The notes under the pieces were generated by a model. That model saw nothing but the letters and a program-made list of their open reading frames with translations, searched no databases and was not told the origin of the DNA. This document shows positions 29,484 to 45,558 of a DNA stretch of 45,558 nucleotides, piece by piece (within the stretch, counting starts at the first letter, position 1; every line of letters begins with the position of its first letter). This stretch comes from Tindallia sp. MSAO_Bac2 (lineage in GTDB: Bacteria; Bacillota; Clostridia; Peptostreptococcales; Tindalliaceae), in contig QYZZ01000115.1 in NCBI GenBank assembly GCA_003838145.1, positions 1 through 45,558 of the forward strand, in the 5' to 3' direction. Position numbers and translations under genes: made by a program.

Positions 29484-30542
29484 ATGATCAGAAATAAAAC
29501 AAAATCTATTAAGGTAGGTAACCTTGGTATCGGCGGTACTGATCCTGTTAGCATCCAGTCTATGACCAATACAGATACCAGAGACGTTGATAAAACCGTT
29601 GAGCAAATTTTTGCTTTGGAAAAAATTGGCTGTCAATTGATACGCGTGGCAGTCCCGGATCATGAAGCGGCTTTGGCAATCAAAGAAATAAAAAAGCGCA
29701 TTACAATTCCTTTGGCTGCAGATATTCATTTTGATTATCGATTGGCAATCAAGGCAGTAGAAATGGGCGCCGATAAGCTTCGTATCAACCCGGGGAATAT
29801 TGGTGATTTTTCCCGAGTAAAGGAAATAGCAAAAATATGTAAAGATTATAAAGTGCCAATTCGGATTGGTGTGAATGGTGGTTCTTTAGAAAAAAAATGG
29901 ATTGATAGGTATGGTGGACCAACTTCAACAGCCATGGTGAAAAGCTGTATTGAGTCCGTTGTAAGTATGGAAGATATTGACTTTACTGACATAATTATTT
30001 CTATTAAATCCAGCAATCTAAATACAATGGTTCAGGCCTATCGGTCTATTAGCAATAAAGTTGATTATCCGCTTCACATAGGAGTAACTGAAGCCGGAAC
30101 CATAGAAATGGGAACTATTAAGTCCGCTATTGGTATCGGTAGTCTGCTTTTGGACGGTATCGGCGACACTCTCAGAGTATCGCTGACAGGTTCACCATTA
30201 CAAGAAATAAAGGTAGGCAAACAAATTCTTAACAGTCTGGGACTGCTTCAAAATCAGGTGCAGATTATTTCCTGCCCAACCTGCGGCAGATGCCAGATTG
30301 ATTTGGTTTATCTGGCAGAAGAAATCGAAAAAGCAGTCAGCAAGATTCAAAAGCCTATAAGCGTTGCGGTAATGGGTTGTGCGGTTAATGGACCCGGTGA
30401 AGCTAAAGAAGCGGATATTGGCATTGCAGGTGGAAAAGAATCTGCACTATTATTCCGTAAAGGTAAGATCATTAAAAAATTGAAAGAAAACGAAATCATT
30501 CCAGTTCTGCTGGAAGAAATACAAAAGCTTAACCCTTCGTAA
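29484..30542 (+). CDS. ispG: 4-hydroxy-3-methylbut-2-en-1-yl diphosphate synthase
   Basis: IspG is the [4Fe-4S] enzyme that reductively opens MEcPP to HMBPP, the penultimate MEP pathway step. The TIM-barrel start has VSIQSMTNTDTRDV; the C-terminal cluster cysteines lie in CPTCGRC and MGCAVNGPGEAKEADIG. The 352-residue length is typical of the bacterial form. ATG 29484 is preferred because AAGGAG at 29470-29475 is eight bases upstream; ATG 29463 precedes that site. Confidence 0.95.
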   Translation: MIRNKTKSIKVGNLGIGGTDPVSIQSMTNTDTRDVDKTVEQIFALEKIGCQLIRVAVPDHEAALAIKEIKKRITIPLAADIHFDYRLAIKAVEMGADKLRINPGNIGDFSRVKEIAKICKDYKVPIRIGVNGGSLEKKWIDRYGGPTSTAMVKSCIESVVSMEDIDFTDIIISIKSSNLNTMVQAYRSISNKVDYPLHIGVTEAGTIEMGTIKSAIGIGSLLLDGIGDTLRVSLTGSPLQEIKVGKQILNSLGLLQNQVQIISCPTCGRCQIDLVYLAEEIEKAVSKIQKPISVAVMGCAVNGPGEAKEADIGIAGGKESALLFRKGKIIKKLKENEIIPVLLEEIQKLNPS

Positions 30543-30559
30543 ATAGGAGGAAACACCAG

Positions 30560-33500
30560 ATGAATAAAAAGACATATACCCTGGATTATCTTTTCCAGCA
30601 TTTTGGCATGACTGCCGAAGAAAGCTGGCTGAAAACATGCATAGTAGAACGAGTACAGTTCTATTCAAATACCAGTAAAATGAATTTGCAGCTATCTTTT
30701 ACCCATGAACCAACCATCAGCCAACTGGAATATCAGCTAAACATGTTAAAAGAACATTTAAAGCTGCAATTTCCAGTCACATATAGTACAAAAGACATAA
30801 TGGGAATCTCAGATATCTGCGACCTACATAACTCCGATGTCTTTCTGAATAACCTAGTTTATTTTGTGGGAAAAAAAATGCCAGTTTCCACCACTCTTAA
30901 TGACAGAATCAATATTGAAATACATCATAAAAACCTGAACCTTTATGTTAAGGATCAGGTTTTCTATGATAAAGCCAAAGAGAGAAATCTTGAAAAATGG
31001 ATTAAAGAGTCACTCAAACAAAGTTATGGAATTTCTATACCTTGTCTTATTCACCATGCTAAAACAACTGCTGATTCACAGCATAATTTTTATAAACAGC
31101 GTCAGGACCTTGAGAAGACAATGGTTGAGAAAATAAGGTTTGAAGAGAAACATCATGAAAAGAAAGAAAAACCACCTATAATGGATAAAGCTGCAGATAA
31201 GAAAAAATATGCAAATAAAGCGAAGGACGATAGTTCTGTGCTATGTGGTCGTAAAATTAGTGACCCTCCAATCCCCATCAGTAGTATCACTGAAGAAGAT
31301 ACTTCTGTCGTAATACATGGTGAAATTTTCAATGTTGATCTTCGAACATTAAAAGACGACCGAAAGCTATTTATCATTGACATCACAGACTATACAGGTT
31401 CAATGACAGCAAAACTATTTGAACCGCGCAAAAACGAAAAACCATTGGAAGATCTGATTACAACAGGTACAACGGTGTCCATCAAAGGGTCACTACAATA
31501 CGATCATTATAGCCGTGAAATAAATATGATGATCTCTGATATCAATAAAATAACTATAAAAGAGACTCTGGACAGTGCACCGGAAAAGAGAGTTGAACTT
31601 CACTGCCACACATGTCTTTCACAGATGGATGGTATTTCTTCTCCACGGGATTTATTTGCCTTAGCTGCAAGGTGGAAACACAAAGCGCTTGCTATTACTG
31701 ATCATGGTGTGGTTCAGGCTTTTCCGGAAGTTCATCAGGCTGCGTCTAAGTATGAAGTAAAGCCTATATATGGCATGGAGGGTTATTTAGTTGATGATGA
31801 ACGGAAAATTCTGGAAGGAGAGGGAAATGTCGAATTTACGGATACTTTTGTAGTATTTGACTTGGAAACTACCGGTTTATCAAATGTTCACGATCGCATC
31901 ACCGAAATAGGTGCTGTTAAAGTATCAAATGGAGAGATTATAGATGAATTCAGTACTTTAGTGAATCCGGAATGTAGTATTCCGGAGAGAATTACTAAAT
32001 TAACAGGTATTGATAACGAAATGGTTCGAGAGTCTCCCACCATTGAATCTGTAATTCCTTCCTTTGTTAAGTTTATTAAAAACTGTATTTTAGTAGCACA
32101 TAATGCTGATTTTGACACTGGTTTTCTAAGAGAAAATATGCAAAGATCTGGTTATTTCTTTGACTATCAAATTTTAGACACTCTTAAACTGTCTCGCCAA
32201 TTATTAAAAAACCTAAAAAAATACAAGTTGAATACCATTGCTAAAGAATTGGACGTTAAGCTTGAAAATCACCATCGAGCGGTATACGATGCAAAAGCAA
32301 CAGCTGAAATATTTCTTAAACTAATCCAAAAAATGAAGGACTTAAATATTAATAACTTCATGGAAATGAACCAATTAACTAATAACCAGAAAGATATAAC
32401 CCGTCAAAGAGCAAATCATGTTGTTATATTGGCACAAACCCAGGAAGGCCTTAGAAATCTTTATGAAATTGTTAGTACTTCTCACATGGATTATTTCTAT
32501 AAAAAACCAAGAATACCAAAAAGTTTTCTGAGAAAACATCGCCGGGGGCTTTTAATCGGTTCCGCCTGTCAGGATGGTGAATTATACCAGGCGGTCTTAA
32601 ACCGCGAACTTGAAAAGCGTATAGAGGAAATCGCCTCTTTTTATGACTATCTGGAGATACAACCGGTTAATAATAATACATTTCTTATAGAAAAAGGCTT
32701 TGTTAAAAACATTGACGAATTAAAAAAACATCATCACGATATTGTGAAATTAGCTGAAAAGCTAAATATTCCGGTTGTTGCGACTGGCGATGTTCATTAT
32801 GTATCAAGAAAAGACAATAATTATCGTCAAATTTTACAGGCTGGCATGGGCTTTGATGATATTGAAGAAGACAGCGAGCTACATTTTAAAACTACTGAAG
32901 AAATGCTTCAGGACTTTGCTCATTTAGGGGATAAAAAGGCATATGAAGTAGTCGTAAAAAATACAAATAGCATCGCTGACAAAATTGAAACGTTAAAACC
33001 AGTACCTGATGGAACTTTTCCTCCATCTATTGCTGGCTCTGAAGAGAAATTACGCAGCCTTTGCTACGACAATGCTCATCGTATCTATGGCAAACCTCTG
33101 CCGGAAATTGTTGAAAAAAGGCTTGTTAGAGAGTTAAGTTCAATTATTGATAATGGATATTCTGTCATGTATATGATTTCGCATCAATTAGTCACAAAAT
33201 CCCTTGAAGACGGATATTTAGTTGGATCTCGGGGATCAGTTGGATCATCCTTTGCTGCGACTATGAGTGACATTACAGAGGTTAATCCTTTAGCACCACA
33301 CTATGTATGCCCTAAGTGCCAGCATTCTGTCTTCTTCACAGAAGGAGAATATGAGTCAGGAATTGATTTGCCTGATAAAAGCTGTGAAAATTGCCAATCA
33401 CCTTACAAAAAAGACGGCCATCAGATACCTTTTGAAGTTTTTCTAGGTTTTGAAGGCGATAAAGAACCGGATATCGATCTGAATTTTGCTGGAGAATACC

Positions 33501-34906
33501 AGAGTATAGCCCACCAATATATAGAGGATTTATTTGGCAAAAATCACGTATTTCGGGCAGGTACACTTGGCACTATAGCCAACAAAACAGCGTTTGGCTT
33601 TGTTAAAAAATACAGTGAGGCATTTTCAATTCAAATGAACAATGCAGAGATAAAGAGACTCATTGAAGGTTGTACTGGTGTGAAAAGAACGACTGGACAG
33701 CATCCTGGCGGTGTTATGATAGTTCCCCAGGACAAAGATATTCATGAATTTACTCCAATTCAGCATCCGGCAAACGATTCTGATTCAGGAGTCATCACCA
33801 CACATTTTGATTATAATGCTCTGAGTGGTAAATTACTTAAATTGGACATACTTGGACACGATGTGCCAACAATTATAAGAATGCTGGAAGACTTTACCAA
33901 AACCAATGCGTTAAATATTCCGCTTGACGATCCTGAAACCATGAGTTTATTTCGGAATGTGGATGCCTTAAATCTTGAAGCGGATAGTTGGAAACCCGAA
34001 GTTGGAAGTCTGGGTATCCCTGAGTTTGGCACAAAGTTTGTACGACAGATGCTGCTTGACACAGAACCTACAACTTTTGCTGAACTGGTCCGTATAAGTG
34101 GACTTTCTCACGGAACCGACGTGTGGCTCAATAATGCGCAGGAACTTGTTAGAAATGGTACTGCAGAGTTAAAAGAAGTCATTTGTACCCGCGATGATAT
34201 AATGAACTACCTCATTTTAAAAGACGTTCCATCGAAACAGTCATTTAAAATAATGGAAAAAGTACGCAAAGGAAAAGGATTGACAGATGAAGAAGAGGAG
34301 CTGCTTAAAGAGCATCATGTTCCTAAATGGTATATTGAGTCTTGCAAGAAAATTAAATATATGTTCCCCAAAGCCCACGCTGTTGCTTATGTGATGATGT
34401 CTTTTCGAATAGCATATTATAAAGTACATTATCCAGAAGCTTTCTACGCTTCTTACTTTAGTATGAAAGTAGATGATTTCGATGCAGAACTTGCATTAAA
34501 GGGGATCGATTCAATTATTAAGTTTATGAAAGAGCTCGATAAATCCACACAAAAGCTAACAGCAAAAGAGAAGAACCAGATGGTTGTAATGGAAGTTGTT
34601 GTCGAAATGCTTAGTCGTGGAATAACTCTACTACCTGTCGATCTTTATCAATCACACGCTGAACGCTTTCTGTTAGAGGAAAACAAAGTCAGACCTCCAC
34701 TAACGTCATTGCAGGGGGTTGGGCAGACAGCTGCACGAAAAATAGCAGAAGAAGCTCAAAAAAGGCCATTCTTATCCATCGAAGAGTTGAGAAATAGAAC
34801 GGGTGCATCAAAAGTTGTAATCGAAACCTTAAAAAATCACGGTGCATGTGAGGAATTGCCGGAAACGAACCAGTTATCACTGTTTCAGCTTGATTTACCA
34901 TCATGA
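30560..34906 (+). CDS. polC: DNA polymerase III alpha subunit, PolC type
   Basis: PolC is the essential replicative polymerase of low-GC Gram-positives with built-in proofreading. The 1448 residues hold an N-terminal domain, an OB fold (about 235-345), a PHP domain split around a DEDD 3'-5' exonuclease (Asp434 and Glu436 in FDLETTGL), a zinc-binding module with Cys917 and Cys920 in CPKC, polymerase-palm aspartates Asp971 and Asp973 in PDIDLNF, and fingers and helix-hairpin-helix regions near the C-terminus (PPLTSLQGVGQTAARKI). AGGAGG precedes the ATG. The promoter of the next operon is within its last codons. Confidence 0.97.
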   Translation: MNKKTYTLDYLFQHFGMTAEESWLKTCIVERVQFYSNTSKMNLQLSFTHEPTISQLEYQLNMLKEHLKLQFPVTYSTKDIMGISDICDLHNSDVFLNNLVYFVGKKMPVSTTLNDRINIEIHHKNLNLYVKDQVFYDKAKERNLEKWIKESLKQSYGISIPCLIHHAKTTADSQHNFYKQRQDLEKTMVEKIRFEEKHHEKKEKPPIMDKAADKKKYANKAKDDSSVLCGRKISDPPIPISSITEEDTSVVIHGEIFNVDLRTLKDDRKLFIIDITDYTGSMTAKLFEPRKNEKPLEDLITTGTTVSIKGSLQYDHYSREINMMISDINKITIKETLDSAPEKRVELHCHTCLSQMDGISSPRDLFALAARWKHKALAITDHGVVQAFPEVHQAASKYEVKPIYGMEGYLVDDERKILEGEGNVEFTDTFVVFDLETTGLSNVHDRITEIGAVKVSNGEIIDEFSTLVNPECSIPERITKLTGIDNEMVRESPTIESVIPSFVKFIKNCILVAHNADFDTGFLRENMQRSGYFFDYQILDTLKLSRQLLKNLKKYKLNTIAKELDVKLENHHRAVYDAKATAEIFLKLIQKMKDLNINNFMEMNQLTNNQKDITRQRANHVVILAQTQEGLRNLYEIVSTSHMDYFYKKPRIPKSFLRKHRRGLLIGSACQDGELYQAVLNRELEKRIEEIASFYDYLEIQPVNNNTFLIEKGFVKNIDELKKHHHDIVKLAEKLNIPVVATGDVHYVSRKDNNYRQILQAGMGFDDIEEDSELHFKTTEEMLQDFAHLGDKKAYEVVVKNTNSIADKIETLKPVPDGTFPPSIAGSEEKLRSLCYDNAHRIYGKPLPEIVEKRLVRELSSIIDNGYSVMYMISHQLVTKSLEDGYLVGSRGSVGSSFAATMSDITEVNPLAPHYVCPKCQHSVFFTEGEYESGIDLPDKSCENCQSPYKKDGHQIPFEVFLGFEGDKEPDIDLNFAGEYQSIAHQYIEDLFGKNHVFRAGTLGTIANKTAFGFVKKYSEAFSIQMNNAEIKRLIEGCTGVKRTTGQHPGGVMIVPQDKDIHEFTPIQHPANDSDSGVITTHFDYNALSGKLLKLDILGHDVPTIIRMLEDFTKTNALNIPLDDPETMSLFRNVDALNLEADSWKPEVGSLGIPEFGTKFVRQMLLDTEPTTFAELVRISGLSHGTDVWLNNAQELVRNGTAELKEVICTRDDIMNYLILKDVPSKQSFKIMEKVRKGKGLTDEEEELLKEHHVPKWYIESCKKIKYMFPKAHAVAYVMMSFRIAYYKVHYPEAFYASYFSMKVDDFDAELALKGIDSIIKFMKELDKSTQKLTAKEKNQMVVMEVVVEMLSRGITLLPVDLYQSHAERFLLEENKVRPPLTSLQGVGQTAARKIAEEAQKRPFLSIEELRNRTGASKVVIETLKNHGACEELPETNQLSLFQLDLPS

Positions 34907-34918
34907 TTATGCTATAAT
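34890..34918 (+). promoter_or_regulatory. Sigma-A-type promoter for the rimP-nusA operon, inside the end of polC
   Basis: TTGATT (34890-34895) and TATAAT (34913-34918) are exactly 17 bp apart, with TG at 34910-34911 giving an extended -10. This is one of the best promoter matches in the window. The -35 and spacer overlap the last codons of polC. Initiation near 34925 would give a leader of about 120 bases containing the hairpin at 34979-35001. Confidence 0.75.
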
Positions 34919-34978
34919 TGTTTGTGAAGTAATGAAAGATTTGGATGTTATGACATTAATCGCAGAGTTATTCATGAG

Positions 34979-35013
34979 AAGAGTGGGCCAACCCCACTCT
35001 TTCATTTTCGTTT
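34979..35013 (+). terminator. Leader terminator/attenuator candidate upstream of rimP
   Basis: AAGAGTGGG (34979-34987) pairs with CCCACTCTT (34993-35001) across CCAAC; the downstream TCATTTTCGTTT is U-rich but interrupted. It lies after the promoter at 34890-34918 and before rimP, so it can end polC transcripts and also attenuate the rimP-nusA operon. An imperfect U-tract is typical of NusA-stimulated terminators, and B. subtilis nusA is reported to be autoregulated by such a leader terminator. Confidence 0.65.
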
Positions 35014-35047
35014 AGGCTCTTTTGTTATAAGAACTGGAGGAAGCATA

Positions 35048-35515
35048 GTGAAAAAAAAAGATCTTGAAAGCAATATCGAGAATGTAGTAAAAAAATATTT
35101 GGAATCAGATATTATCGAGCTTGTAGATGTTGAGTTTGTGAAAGAAGGGCCCAATCATTATCTTCGAATTTATATTGATAAACCTAACGGTGTTACTATT
35201 GATGATTGTGAAAATGTTAGTCGGTACGTTGATGAGTACCTTGACATGAATGATGAGCTGATTACCGTGCCATACTATCTGGAAGTATCTTCACCGGGGC
35301 TTGACAGGCCATTAAAGAAACCGGCGGATTTTCAGCGGAGCATTGGTAAACACATTGAGGTTAAATTGTATCAAAACCTTGATGGCAATAAACTTATTCA
35401 GGGTATATTGAAAAACTATGATGATAATGCACTGACAGTCATACTGGAAAATGAAGAAGAGCTGGTACTTGATCACAAACAAATTGCACTGGTAAAACTG
35501 GCCATTATATTTTAG
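35048..35515 (+). CDS. rimP: Ribosome maturation factor RimP
   Basis: RimP assists maturation of the 30S subunit. The 155-residue product has the two-domain RimP pattern: VDVEFVKEGPNHYLRIYIDKPNGVTIDDC, then the LEVSSPGLDRPLKKP hallmark, and an Sm-like C-terminal domain. GTG 35048 starts after TGGAGG. It opens the conserved rimP-nusA-rnpM-ylxQ-infB-rbfA cluster. Confidence 0.95.
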   Translation: MKKKDLESNIENVVKKYLESDIIELVDVEFVKEGPNHYLRIYIDKPNGVTIDDCENVSRYVDEYLDMNDELITVPYYLEVSSPGLDRPLKKPADFQRSIGKHIEVKLYQNLDGNKLIQGILKNYDDNALTVILENEEELVLDHKQIALVKLAIIF

Positions 35516-35527
35516 GAGGCATGAAAG

Positions 35528-36646
35528 ATGAACACTGAGTTTATTGAAGCACTGGAACAAATTCAGCAGGACAAAGGAATTTCCAAGGAAGTTCTTATAG
35601 AGGCAATTGAGGCAGCATTGATTTCCAGCTATAAGCGAAATTTTGGTTCTTCTCACAACGTGCGTGTAGAAGTAAACAGAGAAACAGGTGAAGTTCACGT
35701 ATACGGACAAAAAAATGTTGTCGATGAAGTAGAAGATGAAAACGTGGAAATCTCTCTTGAAGAAGCAAAAGAAATCAGCCCGAAATTTCAGACAGGTGAT
35801 GTGGTTGAAAAGGAAGTGACGCCCAGAGATTTTGGACGGATAGCAGCACAAACGGCAAAACAGGTTGTTGTTCAAAGAATTCGTGAAGCTGAACGTGGTG
35901 TAGTATTTGATGAGTATGTTAATCGGGAATCCGACATTATTGCTGGAGCGGTAGCTCGTATAGCCCGTGGAACTGTGTTTATAAACCTGGGTAAAGCAGA
36001 AGCCATACTGGCTCATAGTGAGCAAATGCCTGGAGAGACGTACAATCCCGGAGATCGGATTAAAACGTATATAGTAGAAGTTAAGAAAACCACAAAAGGA
36101 CCACAAATTTTAGTTTCCAGAACTCATCCCGGTTTAATTAAGCGACTTTTCGAACTGGAGGTACCGGAAATACATGATGGCATTGTGGAGATAAAAAGCA
36201 TTTCTCGGGAAGCCGGTTATAGAACTAAAATTGCCGTTAACACAAATGATCCAAACGTAGATCCTGTAGGTGCCTGTGTCGGTCAAAAGGGTGTTCGTGT
36301 ACAAGCTATTGTTAATGAACTCCGGGGAGAAAAAATAGATATTATTCGTTTTAGTGAAAACCCGATGGAATATATTACAAGCGCACTGAGCCCCGCAAAA
36401 GTTAGTGAGGCAATAGTAGATGAAGACAACAAGTCAGCCCGTGTTGTTGTACCTGACTACCAGCTGTCATTAGCTATAGGGAAAGAGGGTCAAAATGCTC
36501 GTTTAGCTGCAAAACTAACAGGGTGGAAAATTGACATAAAAAGTGAAAGCCAGGCTAAAGAATCTGATAGTGTGAAAATTGAACCGGAATTTTCTCCTGA
36601 AGCTAATGATGATGTGGAAGGATTAATGCTGGACTCTGAAGAGTAA
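35528..36646 (+). CDS. nusA: Transcription termination/antitermination factor NusA
   Basis: NusA modulates RNA polymerase pausing and termination. Domains: N-terminal RNAP-binding domain (1-130), S1 (about 135-200), KH1 and KH2 (about 205-345, with VGACVGQKGVRVQAIVNEL and SLAIGKEGQNARLAAKLTGW). It lacks the C-terminal acidic repeats of E. coli, as expected in Firmicutes; 372 residues. TAGGAGG precedes the ATG. Confidence 0.97.
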   Translation: MNTEFIEALEQIQQDKGISKEVLIEAIEAALISSYKRNFGSSHNVRVEVNRETGEVHVYGQKNVVDEVEDENVEISLEEAKEISPKFQTGDVVEKEVTPRDFGRIAAQTAKQVVVQRIREAERGVVFDEYVNRESDIIAGAVARIARGTVFINLGKAEAILAHSEQMPGETYNPGDRIKTYIVEVKKTTKGPQILVSRTHPGLIKRLFELEVPEIHDGIVEIKSISREAGYRTKIAVNTNDPNVDPVGACVGQKGVRVQAIVNELRGEKIDIIRFSENPMEYITSALSPAKVSEAIVDEDNKSARVVVPDYQLSLAIGKEGQNARLAAKLTGWKIDIKSESQAKESDSVKIEPEFSPEANDDVEGLMLDSEE

Positions 36647-36675
36647 ATGAAATTTTGTTTGTTGGAGGACTACAG

Positions 36676-36951
36676 ATGAAGAAGAAAAAGATTCCTTTGC
36701 GAAAATGTATTGGCTGCCAGGAAATGAAGCCTAAAAAAGAATTAATACGTGTTGTATGTGATAAAGAAGGTAACATAAGTCTTGACAACACAGGCAAAGC
36801 TCATGGTCGTGGAGCATACATTTGCAACGACTTGGAATGCTTTGAAAAGGCCCGAAAAAGCAGAGGCTTAAATCGCTCTTTTGGCAAAGAGGTGCCAGAC
36901 GAGGTTTACGAGCATCTAAAATCAAAACTGAGCAACGGAGAAACGTCATGA
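36676..36951 (+). CDS. rnpM: RNase P modulator RnpM (YlxR)
   Basis: The 91-residue YlxR-family protein has PLRKCIGCQEMKPKKELIRVV at its start and GRGAYICNDLECFEKARK in the middle. In B. subtilis this protein binds the RNase P RNA and dampens tRNA processing. ATG 36676 has GGAGG seven bases upstream; TTG 36655 precedes that site. The stop overlaps the following ATG in an ATGA arrangement. Confidence 0.92.
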   Translation: MKKKKIPLRKCIGCQEMKPKKELIRVVCDKEGNISLDNTGKAHGRGAYICNDLECFEKARKSRGLNRSFGKEVPDEVYEHLKSKLSNGETS

Positions 36952-37250
36952 GCAGAGAAAAAATTTTAACAATGCTGGGTTTTGGTGAACGGTCCAGAAA
37001 AATAGTTTCCGGGGAAACAGGTTGTCGAATTGCTATTCAGAAAAAGAAAGCCAAATTACTAATAATTGCATTGGACACTGCTGAAAGCAAGAAAACTGAT
37101 TTTAAAAATTTAGCGACACACCATCAAGTTCCTATTCTGGAATTTGGTTATAAGGAAACGCTCGGAAAAGCTATTGGGAAAAGTTCACGCTCTGCAATCG
37201 CAATTTGTGATGACGGTTTAGCCGAAACGATAGATCAACTGATAGAATGA
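36948..37250 (+). CDS. ylxQ: L7Ae/L30e-family RNA-binding protein (YlxQ)
   Basis: A 100-residue L7Ae-like protein with MLGFGERSRKIVSGE, LLIIALDTAESKK and the C-terminal SRSAIAICDDGLAETI pattern of the YlxQ group. These proteins bind kink-turn RNA; the exact role of YlxQ is not settled. It overlaps rnpM by four bases and infB follows within about 40 bases. Confidence 0.9.
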   Translation: MSREKILTMLGFGERSRKIVSGETGCRIAIQKKKAKLLIIALDTAESKKTDFKNLATHHQVPILEFGYKETLGKAIGKSSRSAIAICDDGLAETIDQLIE

Positions 37251-37286
37251 TTGACCACAGAGCAAGATAATCTGGAGGTGAGATAT

Positions 37287-39428
37287 TTGTCAAAAATGAG
37301 AGTTTATCAATTGGCAAAAGAACTAAATATAGGAAGTAAAGAGCTTATTACCAAGCTGCAGGACTTAGGTGTCCAGGTAAGCAGCCATATGAGCACACTT
37401 GAAGAAGAAGATGCTGCTTTGGTAATTGAGCTTATGGAAGAAGAAAAGAAAAGCAAAACACCCGTTGAAGAAGATCCATCAGATGATAAAGAAAAAAAAG
37501 AGTCTGATAAAATTGTTAAGGAAACAAAAAAATCTAAATCTAAGCCTAAAGATCCTGAAAAAGAGGAAAAACAACACACTAAATCTTCGAAAACCAAATC
37601 AAAAAAAGAACCAGGCAAACAGACCTCAGGTAAGGAGTCTGCAAAACGAGCTGATTCTCAGAAAGAAGGAAGCGATATTATCGAAATTGGTGAAAAAATC
37701 ATTGTAAAGGATTTTGCAGAAAAAATCAAAAAAAATCCAAATGAAATCATTATGAAACTTATCCAAAAAGGGGTAATGGCTGCGATTAATCAGGAAATTG
37801 ATTTTGAGTCTGCACAAGCCATAGCATCTGATTATGAAATAGAATTGGAAAAGCAAACTGAAACCGCTGTGCCGGAAGCTTCAACAGACCTTAAAATTGA
37901 AGCTGATGATGAAAAAGATCTAAAACCAAGAGCCCCTGTTGTAACGGTTATGGGTCATGTTGATCATGGTAAAACTTCTTTGCTTGATGCAATTCGAAAG
38001 ACAAAAGTAACGGAAAAAGAAGCTGGAGGAATCACACAACATATTGGTGCCTCAGAAATAATTATCGATAAAAAACGAATTGTTTTTCTTGATACACCAG
38101 GTCACGAAGCATTCACTGCAATGCGAGCCAGAGGAGCTAAAGTTACGGATATTGCCATATTGGTTGTGGCTGCTGATGATGGTGTAATGCCACAGACACT
38201 GGAAGCTATTAACCATGCAAAGGCAGCAAAAGTACCTATTATTGTTGCTATTAATAAGATAGATAAACCAGGAGCCAACCCTGATAGAGTTAAACAGGAA
38301 TTAGCTGATCATGGTGTTATTATTGAAGAATATGGTGGCGAAGTTATTTGTGTTCCGGTATCAGCGTTAAAAGGCTCAAATATAGACGGTTTACTGGAAA
38401 TGATATTGTTGGTTGCTGAAATGGAAGAATTAAAGGCTAATCCAAATCGAAAAGCAACTGGCATCGTGGTTGAAGCAAAGCTGGATAAAGGACGCGGAGC
38501 CGTTGCAACCGTGTTAGTGCAAAATGGCACATTAAAAATCGGAGATTCTGTTGTTATTGGTAATACCTGTGGAAGGGTACGTGCGATGATTAATGACAAA
38601 GGTAAGAACGTCAAAGTTGCAAAACCCTCTACAGCTATCGAAATAACAGGTCTTTCTGATGTGCCGGACGCTGGCGATCAAATGGTTGCTGTTGAAAATG
38701 ACAGGGTAGCCAGAGATATCGTAGAAGATCGTAAAAACAAAATTAAAGAAGAACAGCTGAAAGCCAGTCAAAAAATATCCCTTGATGCATTATACCAACA
38801 AATGCAAGATGGAAAACTTAAAGAACTAAATATTATTTTAAAAGCAGATGTCCACGGTTCTGTAGAAGCTGTAAAGCAGTCATTAAATAAGCTTACTAAC
38901 GAAAAAGTTGCGATTAAGACTATTCATGGCGGAGTAGGTGCCATCACAGAAACAGATGTTATGCTGGCATCGGCATCGAATGCAATTATTATTGGTTTTA
39001 ATGTAAGACCAACAGTTAACGCAACTGCCTTGGCAAAAAAGGAAGATGTGGATATCAGACCATATCGTATAATATATAACGCAATTGAAGATATAGAAGC
39101 GGCTATGAAAGGAATGCTGGATCCGGAGTTTAAAGAAGAAGAACTTGGAAAAGCAGAAGTGAGAGCCGTATTTAAAGTTCCAGGCAGCGGCATGGTAGCT
39201 GGCTGTTATGTAACAGAAGGAAAGATTCTCAGAAATGCTAAAATAAGACTTGTAAGGGATGGAATTGTTATCCACGATGGTGGTATTCAGTCCTTAAAGC
39301 GATTTAAGGACGACGTTAAGGAAGTTGCCACAGGATATGAGTGTGGTATTGGTATTGAGAATTTCAATGATGTAAAAGAAGGAGACATTATTGAGGCTTA
39401 TCATATGAAAGAAATGAAACAGGTATAA
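37287..39428 (+). CDS. infB: Translation initiation factor IF-2
   Basis: IF-2 brings fMet-tRNA to the 30S subunit and drives subunit joining. An N-terminal IF2_N module ([20 protein letters not shown]) is followed by a very Lys/Glu/Ser-rich linker (about 50-125), a second IF2_N-like module, the G domain with GHVDHGKT at 223-230, DTPGHEAF and NKIDKP, then domains II, III and C2. I chose TTG 37287, 713 residues, since GGAGG at 37274-37278 is eight bases upstream and the start then matches the family; TTG 37251 does not. Confidence 0.95.
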
Positions 39429-39474
39429 TCACAAATCTGAATTTCTTGTTATAAAAATAGAAAGGATGAGACAT

Positions 39475-39885
39475 GTGTCCTATCCGCGCGTAAATCGTGT
39501 AAATGAAGAATATAAAAAAGCTATTAGTCAATTATTGCGAACTGAGCTGAAAGATCCCAGGATATCTTCCATGACCAGTGTAGTTTCTGTAGATGTGACG
39601 AGAGACTTTAGTTATGCATATATTTATGTCAGTGTTCTTGGTTCAAAAGAAGAAAAAGAATCAACCATTGAAGGCCTCGAAAAATCAGCTGGGTTTGTTC
39701 GTAGAGAGATGGGGCGAAAAGTTTCACTGCGACATACTCCTGAAGTAATCTTTAAACTTGATGAATCTATCGAATATGGTGTTAATATGGCCCAGAAGAT
39801 CGAGGAGTTAAATCAAAATAAATCATCTGAAAATAAAAAAGTTTCCATGGATGAGGACGATAATAATGAATCTGGACTGGAATAA
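39475..39885 (+). CDS. rbfA: Ribosome-binding factor A
   Basis: RbfA helps 16S rRNA 5' end processing and cold adaptation of the 30S subunit. The 136-residue protein has [21 protein letters not shown] and the KH-like [19 protein letters not shown] motif. GTG 39475 gives the family start and has AAAGGATGA upstream; ATG 39466 lies in that site. A charged Asn/Asp/Lys tail overlaps the start of nrnA by 20 bases. Confidence 0.94.
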
Positions 39886-40864
39886 AACATTCCAAAAGAT
39901 ATTAAAAAGTAATAAAATCGCATTAGCAACTCATGTTCATCCGGATGGAGATGCCTATGGATCTCTTTTGGGAATGTGGCATTTATTAAAAAATAATGGT
40001 TCTAATGTAACTGCCTTTGTTGATCATACGAATCATAACGGAAAGTATTCTTTTTTACCTGGATACAGTGAATTAATCGAAATATCTCAGGATAACCATG
40101 AAATGTATGATCTGGCTGTTACCTTAGACTGTGGAGATAAAGGCAGAGTGACTGGCAGCGAGTGGTTATTCAGCCATTCCAGGCAAGTCATTAACATTGA
40201 CCACCACTATAGCAACCCTATGTTTGGCCATGAAAATATTGTGGACGACCGTATTTCCTCTACATGTGAACTCTTATGGAAGCTATCAGTTGATTCAAAA
40301 ATAAATATTTCAAAAGAAGCTGCTACTTGCCTTTTTACCGGCATCATGACGGATACCGGTAATTTTCTTTACGAAAATACAAGTCCCGAAACGTATCGTT
40401 CAACTGCTGATCTAGTTGAAAAAGGAGCCGATTCTGAAACGGTTAAATTTCATCTTTATCATAATAAGCCCTTGGCAAATATTCAGTTTTTGGGATTTTT
40501 AATTCAACAAATGCAGGTTTTACTAGATGGAAAAGTTATTATTCTTAACATAAGCAGAGAAATACTTGATAACTATGGTGTTTCATACGAAGATTTGGAT
40601 GAATTTGTTGCTTTTGCACGCGATATAAAGGGAGTTGAAGTATCTGCGTTGTTAAAGGAGATGAAAGATGGAAATATTAAAATAAGTCTGCGTTCAAAAT
40701 CTTATTTTGACGTAAGTGAGTTGGCACAGCAATTCAACGGCGGAGGTCATCAAAGAGCTGCCGGAGCTGTAAGTCCGGTGGATATGGAAAAAACAAGAGA
40801 ACAATTGAAAAACCTATTAGAAATTTATTTTCAGGAGAAGTACTATGACAATTGGAATACTTAA
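39866..40864 (+). CDS. nrnA: DHH/DHHA1 family nanoRNase/pAp phosphatase NrnA
   Basis: NrnA degrades very short RNAs and cleaves pAp. The 332-residue protein shows the DHH metal motifs [27 protein letters not shown] and [10 protein letters not shown], and the DHHA1 hallmark GGGHQRAAG near the C-terminus. ATG 39866 has a GAGG site nine bases upstream; ATG 39851 would add five residues. It overlaps rbfA and truB by about 20 bases each, suggesting coupling. In organisms with c-di-GMP signalling, such enzymes can also clear pGpG, relevant to the PilZ receptor upstream (inference). Confidence 0.93.
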
Positions 40865-41759
40865 CTTACTGAAACCACCTGGCATGACTTCCCACGATGT
40901 CGTGAGCAGAGTTAGACGAAAAACTGGAATTAAACGGGTAGGACATGCTGGAACCTTAGATCCGGAAGCAGCAGGAGTGCTTCCGGTTTGTGTAGGGTCC
41001 GCGACTCGGTTGATTCAATATTTGGATCACCGGAAAAAAATATATCGTGCTGAGATGCAATTAGGTGTGGAAACTACAACTCAGGATTTAACTGGCGAAA
41101 TTTTACGAACAACAGAGTATACACCGGATTTAGAGTTGATTATTAATACTTTAAATAATTTTATCGGTGAATATGATCAGACTCCCCCAATGTATTCATC
41201 CGTAAAGAAAAATGGGAAAAAGCTTTATGAACTGGCTAGAGAAGGTAAAGAAGTAGAACGGAAAGTAAAAAGCAGATTCATTTACTCCATTAATCCGGTA
41301 TCTTTCAATAATAAAAAAGCACTGTTTGATGTAGTATGTTCTGAAGGTACCTATATACGCACACTCTGCCATGACGCTGGAAAAATAATGGGATGTGGTG
41401 CTACTATGTCTTTCTTGCTCCGAAAAGAGTCATGTGGACTTTCATTGGAGCATTCCCAGACATTGGAAGAATTTGAAGATGCTAAAGACTGGACAGTGTA
41501 TTGCCTTTTGCCTGATATGCCACTAAAACACCTTCCTGCTATAACTATTGATCAAAAACAATCACATAGGGTGCAAAACGGCAACCCCATTTCTCTTAAT
41601 GATGCAAAATTTCTTCAAAAGGTTAAAGATTCAAATACTAAAGAAGAGTTATATTATCGATTATACCTGGATAATTTATTTGTTGGAATAGGGATAGTTA
41701 AAGAGTCTGAAAGCTTAGTGAAATTTGCAATGAAATTTAATTCAGAAGAGCTTAAATAA
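40845..41759 (+). CDS. truB: tRNA pseudouridine-55 synthase
   Basis: TruB makes the near-universal pseudouridine 55 in the T loop of tRNA. The start [22 protein letters not shown] and catalytic Asp39 in GHAGTLDPEAAGVLP are clear, with the later SCGLSLEHSQ-type motif and a PUA-like C-terminus. Length, 304 residues, is normal. CAGGAG precedes the ATG, which lies inside the end of nrnA. Confidence 0.95.
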   Translation: MTIGILNLLKPPGMTSHDVVSRVRRKTGIKRVGHAGTLDPEAAGVLPVCVGSATRLIQYLDHRKKIYRAEMQLGVETTTQDLTGEILRTTEYTPDLELIINTLNNFIGEYDQTPPMYSSVKKNGKKLYELAREGKEVERKVKSRFIYSINPVSFNNKKALFDVVCSEGTYIRTLCHDAGKIMGCGATMSFLLRKESCGLSLEHSQTLEEFEDAKDWTVYCLLPDMPLKHLPAITIDQKQSHRVQNGNPISLNDAKFLQKVKDSNTKEELYYRLYLDNLFVGIGIVKESESLVKFAMKFNSEELK

Positions 41760-41774
41760 AGACATATTTCCATG

Positions 41775-41780
41775 TATAAT
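41775..41780 (+). promoter_or_regulatory. Possible -10 element upstream of ribF
   Basis: An exact TATAAT lies in the 68-bp truB-ribF gap, the longest between rbfA and ribF. TTAAAT at 41752-41757 gives 17-bp spacing but is a poor -35. It may allow separate ribF expression; chance is also likely in this AT-rich gap. Confidence 0.35.
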
Positions 41781-41827
41781 TAAACTAGCAATCTTGCAGA
41801 TAATTTGTTAATCAGGGAGCAATAATT

Positions 41828-42781
41828 ATGAAAGTAATGGAAGACTATCATGAAATAATATACGACACCAACCCTCGAGGAGTTGCCCTCGGTAATTTTG
41901 ATGGCATTCACAAAGGTCATCAGACTTTGCTGAAACAACTGGTTCAAAATAGCAGAGAGCGCAATATATTACCTTCAGTATATACCTTTCAAAATCATCC
42001 GGGAACAGTACTGGATCGATACAATAAACCGATTTTTCCATACAAAATAACACCAATTCCTTTAAAAAAGAAAATTATGGAAAAATTCGGTGTAGACCTA
42101 TTGTTTTTGGACACATTTACTAAAAAGCTTATGGTGCTGTCCCCGTCTGAGTTTGCAAAAACTATCCTGGTGGACACCCTAAAGGCGAAATTGGTGGTAG
42201 TGGGTGAAGATTTTCGCTTTGGTTACCAGGCCTCTGGAGATGTAACCTTATTAAAAAAACTTGGCAAAGCCTTCGGGTTTGATGTAATAATTGTTTCACC
42301 TGTATATGAAGGAAGCATAAGAATCAGCAGCTCTCAGATCCGGAGATTTATCGAACAGGGAGATCTGGAGTCTGCAAACAAATTACTAGGTCGGCCTTTT
42401 ATGATGTTAAATCAGGTGGAAAAGGGATTTGGCAGAGGTAAAAAGATGGGTTATCCAACTGCCAACCTGGTATTAGAACACAATCAGCTGGTACCTTCTG
42501 AGGGAGTTTATGCAACCAGGGTAAATATTGACGGACGAATATACATGGGAGCTACATCCGTTGGTAAAAATCCAACATTTAAATCTGAAGACATTACTAT
42601 TGAAACTTATATTATTGATTCAAACTTAATGCTATATGAACGTGAAATTGAATTGTATTTCTATAAAAAAATTCGTGATCAAATAACATTCGAAAATGTT
42701 GATGACCTTAAACATCAGATTTATGAAGATGTTCAAACAATAAAGAACTATTTACAAAGTAAAAAAACTATGATAGTATAA
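41828..42781 (+). CDS. ribF: Bifunctional riboflavin kinase/FAD synthetase
   Basis: RibF phosphorylates riboflavin to FMN and adenylylates FMN to FAD. The N-terminal nucleotidyltransferase domain has GNFDGIHKGHQ and RISSSQIR; the C-terminal kinase domain has GFGRGKKMGYPTANL and GVYATRV. The 317 residues are standard. CAGGGAG precedes the ATG. No FMN riboswitch is visible in the short upstream gap. Confidence 0.95.
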   Translation: MKVMEDYHEIIYDTNPRGVALGNFDGIHKGHQTLLKQLVQNSRERNILPSVYTFQNHPGTVLDRYNKPIFPYKITPIPLKKKIMEKFGVDLLFLDTFTKKLMVLSPSEFAKTILVDTLKAKLVVVGEDFRFGYQASGDVTLLKKLGKAFGFDVIIVSPVYEGSIRISSSQIRRFIEQGDLESANKLLGRPFMMLNQVEKGFGRGKKMGYPTANLVLEHNQLVPSEGVYATRVNIDGRIYMGATSVGKNPTFKSEDITIETYIIDSNLMLYEREIELYFYKKIRDQITFENVDDLKHQIYEDVQTIKNYLQSKKTMIV

Positions 42782-42782
42782 T
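42777..42782 (+). promoter_or_regulatory. -10 element of a likely rpsO promoter
   Basis: An exact TATAAT overlaps the ribF stop. TTTACA at 42751-42756 is a fair -35 but at a long 20-bp spacing. A start near 42789 would place the structured rpsO leader at the very 5' end of the transcript, which supports the call. Confidence 0.45.
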
Positions 42783-42794
42783 TAAGTCAGGAAC

Positions 42795-42845
42795 CTATTC
42801 TCGGTAGATCGATTCACCAACGGCTACTTAGGATATGGGGATTAA
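42795..42845 (+). promoter_or_regulatory. Candidate S15-responsive leader of rpsO
   Basis: Between ribF and rpsO, CCTA (starting about 42795) can pair with TAGG, and inside it GTAG with CTAC around a 16-base loop, leaving an asymmetric internal loop. Autoregulation of rpsO by S15 through short structured leaders is known in several phyla, including Firmicutes. The stems are short and I could not match a known S15 consensus, so identification rests on position and pairing. Confidence 0.35.
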
Positions 42846-42864
42846 TATGAGGAGGTGAAGAATC

Positions 42865-43128
42865 ATGGAAGAAAACAAAAAGAAATCGATTATTGAAGCA
42901 TACAAGCTACATGAGAGTGATACTGGTTCTCCAGAAGTGCAAATTGCTTTGATGACTGATCGAATCAACCATCTGAATGAACATTTAAAAACCCACAAAA
43001 AAGACTTTCACTCAAGACGTGGATTGCTTAAAATGGTTGGTAAAAGAAGAAATCTGCTGAATTATCTTAAAAAGAAAGATATTGCTAAGTATCGTCAGTT
43101 AATTGAAAAACTTGGACTACGTAAATAA
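42865..43128 (+). CDS. rpsO: 30S ribosomal protein S15
   Basis: S15 is a primary 16S rRNA-binding protein that nucleates the platform of the 30S subunit. The 87-residue sequence has the family motifs [26 protein letters not shown] and [29 protein letters not shown] precedes the ATG. It is followed by a strong hairpin and pnp, the usual order. Confidence 0.97.
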
Positions 43129-43132
43129 TCAC

Positions 43133-43164
43133 AAGATAAGAGCGGGATTTCCCGCTCTTATCTT
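43133..43164 (+). terminator. 14-bp hairpin between rpsO and pnp
   Basis: AAGATAAGAGCGGG (43133-43146) pairs perfectly with CCCGCTCTTATCTT (43151-43164) over an ATTT loop. There is no U-run after the stem, so it may act as a partial terminator or as the RNase/PNPase-sensitive element known to lie between rpsO and pnp in other bacteria. Confidence 0.6.
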
Positions 43165-43222
43165 CTATGGAGAATAATGAAAATTTTTATTCATGAACGC
43201 TCGAAAGGAGGAGTAGTTTTAT

Positions 43223-45379
43223 ATGATTCATAATTTTAAGACTGAGCTCAACGGGAGAACTTTGTCGGTTGAAATCGGAAAAGTTGCTTTACTCTCCGGT
43301 GGCAGTTGTATGGTTACTTATGGAGATACAGTTGTTTTAGTGACTGCTAACAGATCTCCAAAACCTAAAGAGAACATTGACTTTTTTCCACTGACTGTTG
43401 ATTTCGAAGAAAAGCTTTATGCAGCTGGAAAGATACCGGGAGGTTTCATCAAGCGTGAGGGAAGACCTTCTGAGAGGGCAATTCTTTCCTGCAGACTGAT
43501 AGATAGAACCATACGTCCTTTGTTCCCCAAAGGGTATCACCATGATGTACAGATTATTGCAACTGTTCTTTCTATGGACAATGACTGCGTACCAGACATT
43601 GTGGCGATGATTGGTGCTTCTATTGCATTATCTGTTTCGGACATTCCATTTATGGGACCTATTGCCGGCGTTTACATTGGATGCGTTGATGGTGAATTTG
43701 TTATTAATCCCACCAGTGTTCAAAGAGAAGAAAGCACCCTTAATTTAGCTGTTTCAGGTACTGATGAAGCTGTTATGATGATTGAGGCTGGTGCCAATGA
43801 ACTGAATGAACAGGAAATTCTGGATGCCATCCTATATGGACATGAAGAAATTAAGCGATTAGTTGAATTTATTAAAGAAATTCAACTGGCTGTAGGAAAA
43901 GAAAAGCAGCAGGTTGAACTGGCGCTACCAGATCCGGACCTTGAAGAAAAAGTGCGTACTGATGCTACGGAAAAACTTATTTCAGCTATTAAAACTGTAG
44001 ATAAACTGGAAAGAATGGAAAATATCGACAACGTACAGGAATCTATTGTTGAACAATATAAGGAAACGCACGAAGAAGAAATTGGTGATGTTAAAAACAT
44101 ATTAAAGCAGATCGTTAAAGAAGAAATGCGACGTATTGTCATTAATGACAAGAAGCGAATTGACAATCGCAAACTTGATGAAGTGCGTCCAATTTCCTGC
44201 GAAGTTGGTTTGCTGCCCAAAACTCATGGATCCGGACTTTTTACTCGTGGAGAAACACAGGTGCTCACTGTTGCAACGCTAGGAGCCCTTGGTGATGTAC
44301 AAATAATTGATGGTATTGGTGAGGAAGAGTCCAAGCGATACATGCATCAGTATAATTTCCCTCCCTTCAGCACAGGAGAAGCCAGGTTTATGCGAGGGCC
44401 CAGCCGTCGTGATATCGGACATGGCGCATTGGCTGAAAGAGCACTTGAGCCAATGGTGCCAAGTATGGAGGAGTTTCCATACACCATTCGTCTTGTTTCT
44501 GAATGCCTTGCTTCAAATGGTTCTACATCTCAGGCAAGTGTGTGCGGCAGTACTTTATCTATGCTGGATGCAGGTGTGCCTATCAAGAAAATGGTCGCCG
44601 GAATAGCTATGGGGTTAATTAAAGAAGACGATGATGTAGCAATTTTAACTGACATTTTAGGCATGGAAGATTTCCTTGGCGATATGGACTTTAAAGTAGC
44701 AGGAACAAATGATGGGATTACAGCCATTCAAATGGATATTAAAATTGGTGGTATCAGTCGTGAAATCCTTGAAAATGCTTTGGAACAGGCAAGAGTAGGC
44801 AGACTTCATATTCTAAAAGAAATGCAAAAAGTCATCAGTGAACCCAGACCGGAGCTTTCACCTTATGCTCCTCGCATAATGAAAATGAGCATTCACCCGG
44901 ATAAAATCCGAGAGGTTATTGGAGCAGGTGGAAAAGTCATCAACAAAATCATAGATGATACAGGTGTTAAAATCGACATTGAAAATGATGGCACCATATA
45001 TATTGCTGCTGAGTCTAAAGAAGCGGGCCAAAAAGCCTGGGATATCATCAGTGATATTATTAAAGAGCCTGAAGTAGGAGAAATTTATAAAGCGCGTATT
45101 GTAAAAATAACTAATTTCGGCGCTTTTGCAGAGTTTATGCCTGGTAAAGAAGGTTTAATTCATATTTCCAATCTTTCTCATAGCAGAGTAAATAAGGTGG
45201 AAGATGTTTTGAAAATTGGTCAGGAGTTGGATGTAAAAGTTATTGAAATAGATCCCCAGGGCAAAGTAAGCTTATCGCATAAAGCAACTTTACCAGCCCC
45301 ATCCGGAGGAGAAAAAAGCGATAGTCGAAGCTCCGGTCGAAGTTCAGAACGCAATAAAAAAGATTTTAAAAAATCCTGA
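43223..45379 (+). CDS. pnp: Polyribonucleotide nucleotidyltransferase (PNPase)
   Basis: PNPase is a phosphorolytic 3'-5' exoribonuclease of the RNA degradosome. The 718 residues contain two RNase PH domains (about 10-215 and 305-545; second-site [16 protein letters not shown]), an all-helical linker, a KH domain with [14 protein letters not shown] and a C-terminal S1 domain ([27 protein letters not shown]), ending in a Ser/Lys/Arg-rich tail. AAAGGAGGAG precedes the ATG. Confidence 0.97.
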
Positions 45380-45401
45380 TTAGTATTACAATGAATAAGA
45401 G

Positions 45402-45434
45402 CATAAACCTGCACCGGGTTTATGTTTTTATTTC
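45402..45434 (+). terminator. Intrinsic terminator after pnp
   Basis: CATAAACC (45402-45409) pairs with GGTTTATG (45417-45424) over a seven-base loop, followed directly by TTTTTATTT. This is a typical Rho-independent terminator and ends the rimP-pnp transcription unit. Confidence 0.8.
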
Positions 45435-45469
45435 GTTGTGATGTTAGAATAAAATAAGGACATATTAAA

Positions 45470-45498
45470 TTGAGTCTTTCCGATGTCAACGATATAAT
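45470..45498 (+). promoter_or_regulatory. Sigma-A-type promoter after pnp
   Basis: TTGAGT (45470-45475) and TATAAT (45493-45498) are separated by exactly 17 bp. It lies between the pnp terminator and a new gene start, so it very likely drives that gene. Confidence 0.75.
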
Positions 45499-45523
45499 GA
45501 GGATGACAAAGGAGACGATATGA

Positions 45524-45558
45524 ATGGGAACAAACAGAAAACAACAATACAGTAGCGA
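45524..45558 (+). CDS. Start of a gene cut by the window edge
   Basis: ATG 45524 follows AAAGGAG (45508-45514) at nine bases and opens MGTNRKQQYSS before the window ends. A second ATG at 45520 in another frame meets a stop after 11 codons and is rejected. Too little is present to identify a family. Confidence 0.5.
   Translation, partial: MGTNRKQQYSS

Follow-up and report, generated by a model that had tools for sequence, protein, structure and literature searches.

The rimP-nusA-infB operon is preceded by a general rimP-leader, which Naville and Gautheret published in 2010 for most of the species that they examined, Firmicutes included (PMC2965389, Figure 2b). In B. subtilis, nusA is autoregulated by NusA-stimulated termination in its leader (PMC12288461). 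In S. agalactiae, the operon gbs0413-gbs0418 yields a short RNA, whose terminator lies 31 nt downstream of where transcription of the operon starts, and a feedback has been proposed for it (PMC4448216). In E. coli, a feedback by NusA has been proposed (PMC2965389); there, the terminators t1 and t2 lie before rimP, and transcripts rise when NusA termination is reduced (PMC6511841). The Rfam family RF01770, rimP, is named the Gammaproteobacteria rimP leader (PMC5955585).

The DNA analyzed here is a 45,558 nt stretch from Tindallia sp. MSAO_Bac2 (contig QYZZ01000115.1), called the window, where open reading frames and Pfam matches identify rimP and nusA, followed by codirectional genes as far as pnp (Table 1). 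Judged by its sequence, the hairpin upstream of rimP is the leader that Naville and Gautheret described as the general rimP-leader: it occupies the 5′ UTR before rimP-nusA-infB, it has a G-rich 5′ arm, a C-rich 3′ arm and the leader-specific motif, and it is followed by a T-stretch, though a broken one. The leader probably acts as a transcription attenuator of the rimP-nusA operon through a NusA-stimulated feedback, as its sequence and those of its relatives suggest. A sequence-only reading of the window had proposed such a leader terminator with NusA feedback, which is the best-supported interpretation in view of the genomes that lack rimP (9 of 13) and the conserved break in the U-tract; its presentation as an undescribed counterpart of the B. 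subtilis leader is not supported, since the leader was published in 2010.

Table 1. Coordinates of the features of the polC-rimP-nusA-pnp region within the window.
Feature	Position	Strand	Evidence and remarks
polC, DNA polymerase III alpha, PolC type	30560..34906	+	ORF; Pfam DNA_pol3_alpha, RNase_T, PHP, DNA_pol3_a_NII; 3′ end contains the -35 box
Sigma-A type promoter TTGATT-17-TATAAT with TG extension	34890..34918	+	Promoter scan; similar site in 107/123 leaders
5′ spacer of the rimP leader, about 60 nt	34919..34977	+	Between the -10 box and the hairpin
rimP-leader hairpin GAAGAGTGGG-CCAAC-CCCACTCTTT	34978..35002	+	Terminator scan, model R1, folding
Interrupted U-tract TTTCATTTT, likely termination zone	35000..35008	+	U-tract comparison
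Shine-Dalgarno-like GGAGGAAG of rimP, not sequestered by the hairpin	35036..35043	+	By eye
rimP, GTG start at 35048	35048..35515	+	Pfam RimP_N 3.2e-24, DUF150_C; start by eye
nusA, probable feedback regulator	35528..36646	+	Pfam NusA_N 1.9e-47, KH_5, S1
ylxR, L7Ae-type gene, infB, rbfA	36655..39885	+	Pfam
DHH/DHHA1 gene, truB, ribF, rpsO, pnp; codirectional	39851..45379	+	Pfam
Related hairpin AAGATAAGAGCGGG-attt-CCCGCTCTTATCTT in the rpsO-pnp interval; no U-tract follows it on the + strand	43132..43165	+	Model R1 and comparison

The terminator-like hairpin before rimP is present and highly conserved, with 10 pairs (nine Watson-Crick and one G-U at the base) where 9 bp had been counted before. 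Its folding energy is -14.9 kcal/mol, with a z of -4.75 relative to shuffles. A search of the 2.48-Mb genome for the core pattern, GAGTGGG-N3..9-CCCACTC, gives a single location, and the reversed control pattern gives none. A terminator scan finds 16 sites, compared to 10.0 (sd 3.6) in shuffles, so that the weight rests on the hairpin's conservation. The tail after CCCACTC contains 7 U in nine positions with a longest run of 4, and some other hairpins of the Tindallia genome have similarly broken tails (by eye).

The DNA upstream of rimP was taken from 7 family genomes and from a class sample, where RimP_N was found in 139 of 148 genomes, resulting in 137 loci; beyond the loci first given, the class sample held 108 RimP loci, from which 100 were taken (left out were G019, G025, G037, G051, G056, G090, G101 and G111). 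A loose motif score is passed by 135 of the 137 loci (131 of these 135 are distinct), and a stricter score by 123, while the exact GAGTGGG...CCCACTC core is found in 85 of the 131 distinct leaders. In an alignment of 93 class relatives (A1), 96% of the cells are paired, 7 of the 10 pairs change in compensatory fashion on both sides, and 3 pairs are invariant. The choice of rows raises this apparent conservation, as A1 was built from 103 non-redundant leaders by removing 11 with a diverged or other-register stem (L046, L062, L066, L069, L087, L097, L103, L108, L116, L123 and L126) and adding L003, the window's nearest relative. Together, the pairing, the compensatory changes and the invariant pairs indicate that the structure is kept and that some letters are kept beyond the needs of pairing.

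The class model R1 detects the leader in most of the loci. In particular, 86 of the 100 loci and 37 of 37 others have a sense-strand match of at least 20 bits before rimP, counts that are partly circular since many of these loci are training rows; the window's hairpin, itself one of the 93 training rows, scores 39.9 bits. Among 80 named NusA loci from Clostridia, Negativicutes and Bacilli, which may partly overlap the class-sample genomes, 74 have a plus-strand match of at least 20 bits, and 3 of the 6 without a match are cut at most 240 nt upstream of nusA. The other 14 of the 100 loci (L039-L138) score below 20 bits on the sense strand, several of them with another hairpin in place. Two genomes of the window's order (G128 and G152, family f4; L096, L061, L224 and L225) lack the leader hairpin, though rimP and nusA are adjacent, and no R1 match lies near rimP in three genomes of one genus (G064, G091 and G141); these loci count against the attenuator reading. 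One genus (L123, L124 and L116, from G106, G050 and G011) has the hairpin in a shifted form, GAAGTGGGCA...TGCCCACTTC, which the model misses.

The promoter has 10 of 12 matches, with TTGATT at 34890-34895, a 17 nt spacing, TATAAT at 34913-34918 and the TG extension. The earlier placement of this promoter inside polC is correct for the -35 box, but the -10 box lies just beyond the polC stop. A scan of 30000-45558 yields 55 such sites, and shuffled sequence gives 47.7 on average, so that a single site means little; the window's promoter becomes credible because it is conserved across leaders. Of 123 leaders, 107 have a promoter-like site with a score of at least 10 in the 110 nt that precede the stem, whereas such a site occurs in 4 of 112 stretches taken 220-330 nt upstream and in 6 of 123 shuffled sequences. 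From the -10 box, transcription is predicted to start at about 34925. In the 107 leaders with a site, the -10 box and the stem are separated by a median of 30 nt, so that most species have a leader with too little room for an aptamer; in the window, the separation from the GAGTGGG stem is 62 nt.

The U-tract that follows the stem has a regular defect. In 96 of 123 leaders, CCCACTC is followed by U at +1, +2 and +3, and a non-U letter occupies +4 or +5 in 115 of 123. The interrupted tract noted earlier in the window is thus shared by its relatives and is not peculiar to this locus. A run of at least 5 U occurs in 5 of 123 leaders, whereas 13 of the 17 look-alike hairpins from other places in the class have one, with a mean of 5.97 U in nine for the leaders and 7.35 for the 17 look-alikes; these controls were off-target hairpins chosen by a model whose training rows had broken tails, a bias that works against the observed difference, and the own-genome hairpins after genes were too mixed for a clean comparison. 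NusA-dependent terminators frequently have distal U-tract interruptions (PMC8060035, citing Mondal 2016). By analogy, the conserved +4/+5 break is the kind of flaw reported for such terminators, and its regularity gives an easily read sequence signature of a terminator expected to be factor-dependent. A weak hairpin is another mark of NusA-dependent terminators, which the window's hairpin does not have, given its folding energy and z; its U-tract is also better than the class mean.

The mechanism that we infer, from the start and stop points to termination at this hairpin at all, NusA as the effector and a protein's reading of the near-fixed stem letters, would proceed as follows. RNA polymerase would start at about 34925 and make about 50 nt before producing the GAGUGGG hairpin, which alone would terminate poorly, as the U-tract is broken after three U. 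Abundant free NusA on the polymerase would favor hairpin completion and pausing, and an RNA of about 80-90 nt would be released near 35006-35010. When NusA is scarce, the polymerase would read through into rimP, nusA and the genes behind them.

A fixed partial terminator, setting the operon's basal level or blocking read-through from polC without any feedback, is an unlikely explanation of these observations. The hairpin sits downstream of polC, but it is not merely a polC terminator because a promoter precedes it. With UUUCAUUUU, it may terminate unaided, and a conserved antiterminator was not found, with an alternative pairing at p<=0.05 in 4 of 123 leaders. Ordinary terminators, however, do not keep stem letters, whereas 3 pairs are invariant here in 93 sequences, and 80 of the 82 R1 matches with E<=1e-5 in the 148 genomes are at the rimP leader, a hand count that speaks for specificity only, since the model was trained on many of them. 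Moreover, feedback on the B. subtilis operon is published (PMC12288461).

Genomes that lack rimP bear on the identity of the regulator. An R1 match, also seen among the off-target matches (L176), lies before nusA in G130, a genome without a RimP_N match. Its family, f8, was sampled with 59 small genomes, where RimP_N was found in 43 and NusA_N in 57. The 16 genomes without RimP_N include both sampled members of several genera, and this spread suggests a real loss of rimP. Excluding two genomes without a NusA_N match (G202 and G207) and a contig-edge artefact (G200, where the upstream frame is the RimP C-terminal domain by Pfam, so that the end of rimP is present), 13 genomes are informative, and none was used to train R1. 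The motif is found before nusA in 9 of these 13 genomes without a detectable rimP: 35-63 nt before the NusA_N match in G205, G214, G203, G178, G191, G130 and G164, at 60 nt in G217 and at 260 nt in G189. By R1 alone, 7 of the 13 score at least 20 bits on the sense strand, with G217 at 18.4 bits and G189 not listed. In the other 4, the motif before nusA is diverged (G206 and G166) or was not found (G181 and G177). The gene upstream of the motif is an exonuclease/OB-fold gene in G130 and G205 (Pfam); 2 of the 9 have a different upstream gene, which encodes a class II tRNA synthetase in G189, while G217 has an SLT gene there.

The hairpin therefore stays with nusA when rimP is gone, and these genomes constitute a natural experiment against RimP as a necessary ligand, tying the hairpin to nusA and the genes behind it. 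As sequence evidence, they disfavor RimP as the regulator and favor NusA or some other product that the operon encodes. All 8 of the rimP-less loci inspected have ylxR after nusA (by eye; Pfam in one), so that the genes behind nusA, YlxR included, could still be a source of the signal. YlxR is an RNA-binding protein, and the near-fixed stem letters suggest a base-specific reading; still, a feedback in which RimP, YlxR, the L7Ae-type protein or a ribosome-assembly signal reads the GAGUGGG hairpin is quite improbable. To our knowledge, ylxR and the L7Ae-type gene are absent from the E. coli operon. The 2010 publication nevertheless reports the motif in Gammaproteobacteria, which argues against these two, and RimP, which Naville and Gautheret called possible with NusA as the best candidate (PMC2965389), is opposed by the 9 rimP-less genomes above. 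This attenuator is among the most widespread in bacteria, and its regulator has so far been argued from work on B. subtilis and E. coli. The retention of the hairpin with nusA after the loss of rimP, often seen in these sequences, is added here to the 2010 description, together with the conserved U-tract break and the promoter-like site close to the stem; a literature search, with most subscription journals outside its reach, recognized no publication on the rimP-less cases or the conserved tail break.

A translation-coupled attenuator, in which a leader peptide or an antiterminator controls the hairpin, is very improbable: the window has a 27-codon frame through the hairpin (ATG at 34933, MKDLDVMTLIAELFMRRVGQPHSFIFV, stop at 35014-35016) and a 9-bp pairing of AATGAAAGA with TCTTTCATT (34931-34939 with 34998-35006, shuffle p of about 0.02), but the frame has no convincing Shine-Dalgarno sequence and its start is not kept in L003, the pairing shrinks to 5 bp in L003, the best pairing across 123 leaders does not exceed that of shuffles in length (5.47 against 5.33), and the usual 5′ spacer is too short. 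Both candidates were rejected, the antiterminator because its pairing is lost in L003 and is not conserved among the leaders, and the peptide because no start, Shine-Dalgarno sequence or peptide is common to the family. An ATG frame runs into the stem in 61 of 123 leaders and a frame with any start codon in 99 of 123, counts that have no control set.

Further, a related hairpin lies between rpsO and pnp. In a profile search of the Tindallia genome, it is the second-best place for R1 after the leader, with E 8e-4 on the minus strand and 0.008 on the plus strand, ahead of a third place at E 0.99. Its stem, GAGCGGG, differs by a single letter from that of the rimP-leader, which it resembles, and GAGCGGG...CCCGCTC is found between rpsO and pnp in 7 of 7 family genomes. 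Of 88 class loci, 38 have a GAGCGGG-like hairpin after rpsO (16 of 27 and 22 of 61), a sample that is not random, as the 27 were partly chosen for earlier matches and 40 of the 61 were hand-picked after an earlier result had been seen. The hairpin may be no more than a terminator of rpsO; the rpsO-pnp interval of E. coli and Streptomyces contains a terminator and an RNase III hairpin (PMC5872136). It is a speculative and improbable idea that both hairpins share one code, GAGYGGG-loop-CCCRCUC, read by one protein with NusA as the first guess; if true, a transcription factor would tune its own operon and an RNA-decay enzyme at the cluster's far end. Most of the 20 off-target R1 matches that were inspected look by eye like ordinary terminators, located at gene ends and flanked by A- and U-rich sequence; the exceptions include the nusA leader of G130 and two hairpins before infC. 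In the latter (L174 and L175, from G009 and G129 of one genus), GAGAGTGGG...GCCCGCTCTTTTGTTTT at locus positions of about 1500-1540 directly precedes infC, with IF3 identified by Pfam in L174, and this hairpin is probably the terminator of an infC leader.

Overall, the Tindallia leader is closest to the general rimP-leader, with which it shares its place before rimP-nusA-infB, a short terminator, a GGG...CCC stem, a U-stretch, the absence of a visible antiterminator and an occurrence in Firmicutes; in contrast, its loop edges are GGGc...cCCC where the published ones are GGGc...gCCC, and the Tindallia genome is apparently outside the 2010 set (PMC2965389). RF01770 represents the same operon and the same idea in a two-hairpin gammaproteobacterial form. 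It has no matches in the window at its gathering score (47 bits), none in 34850-35100 up to E 10 and none in 21 related genomes, and of 14 controls only E. coli matched; no Rfam family matched the window at its gathering score, and only weak, unrelated matches appeared in 34850-35100 up to E 10. The B. subtilis nusA leader (Mondal 2016, via PMC12288461) likewise places a terminator before rimP (ylxS)-nusA, with NusA as a product of the operon, while NusA dependence in Tindallia is predicted by analogy. The S. agalactiae gbs0413-gbs0418 leader also has an intrinsic terminator before rimP-nusA, with short and long transcripts from one start, where termination occurs 31 nt after that start, compared to the about 80-90 nt predicted here (PMC4448216).
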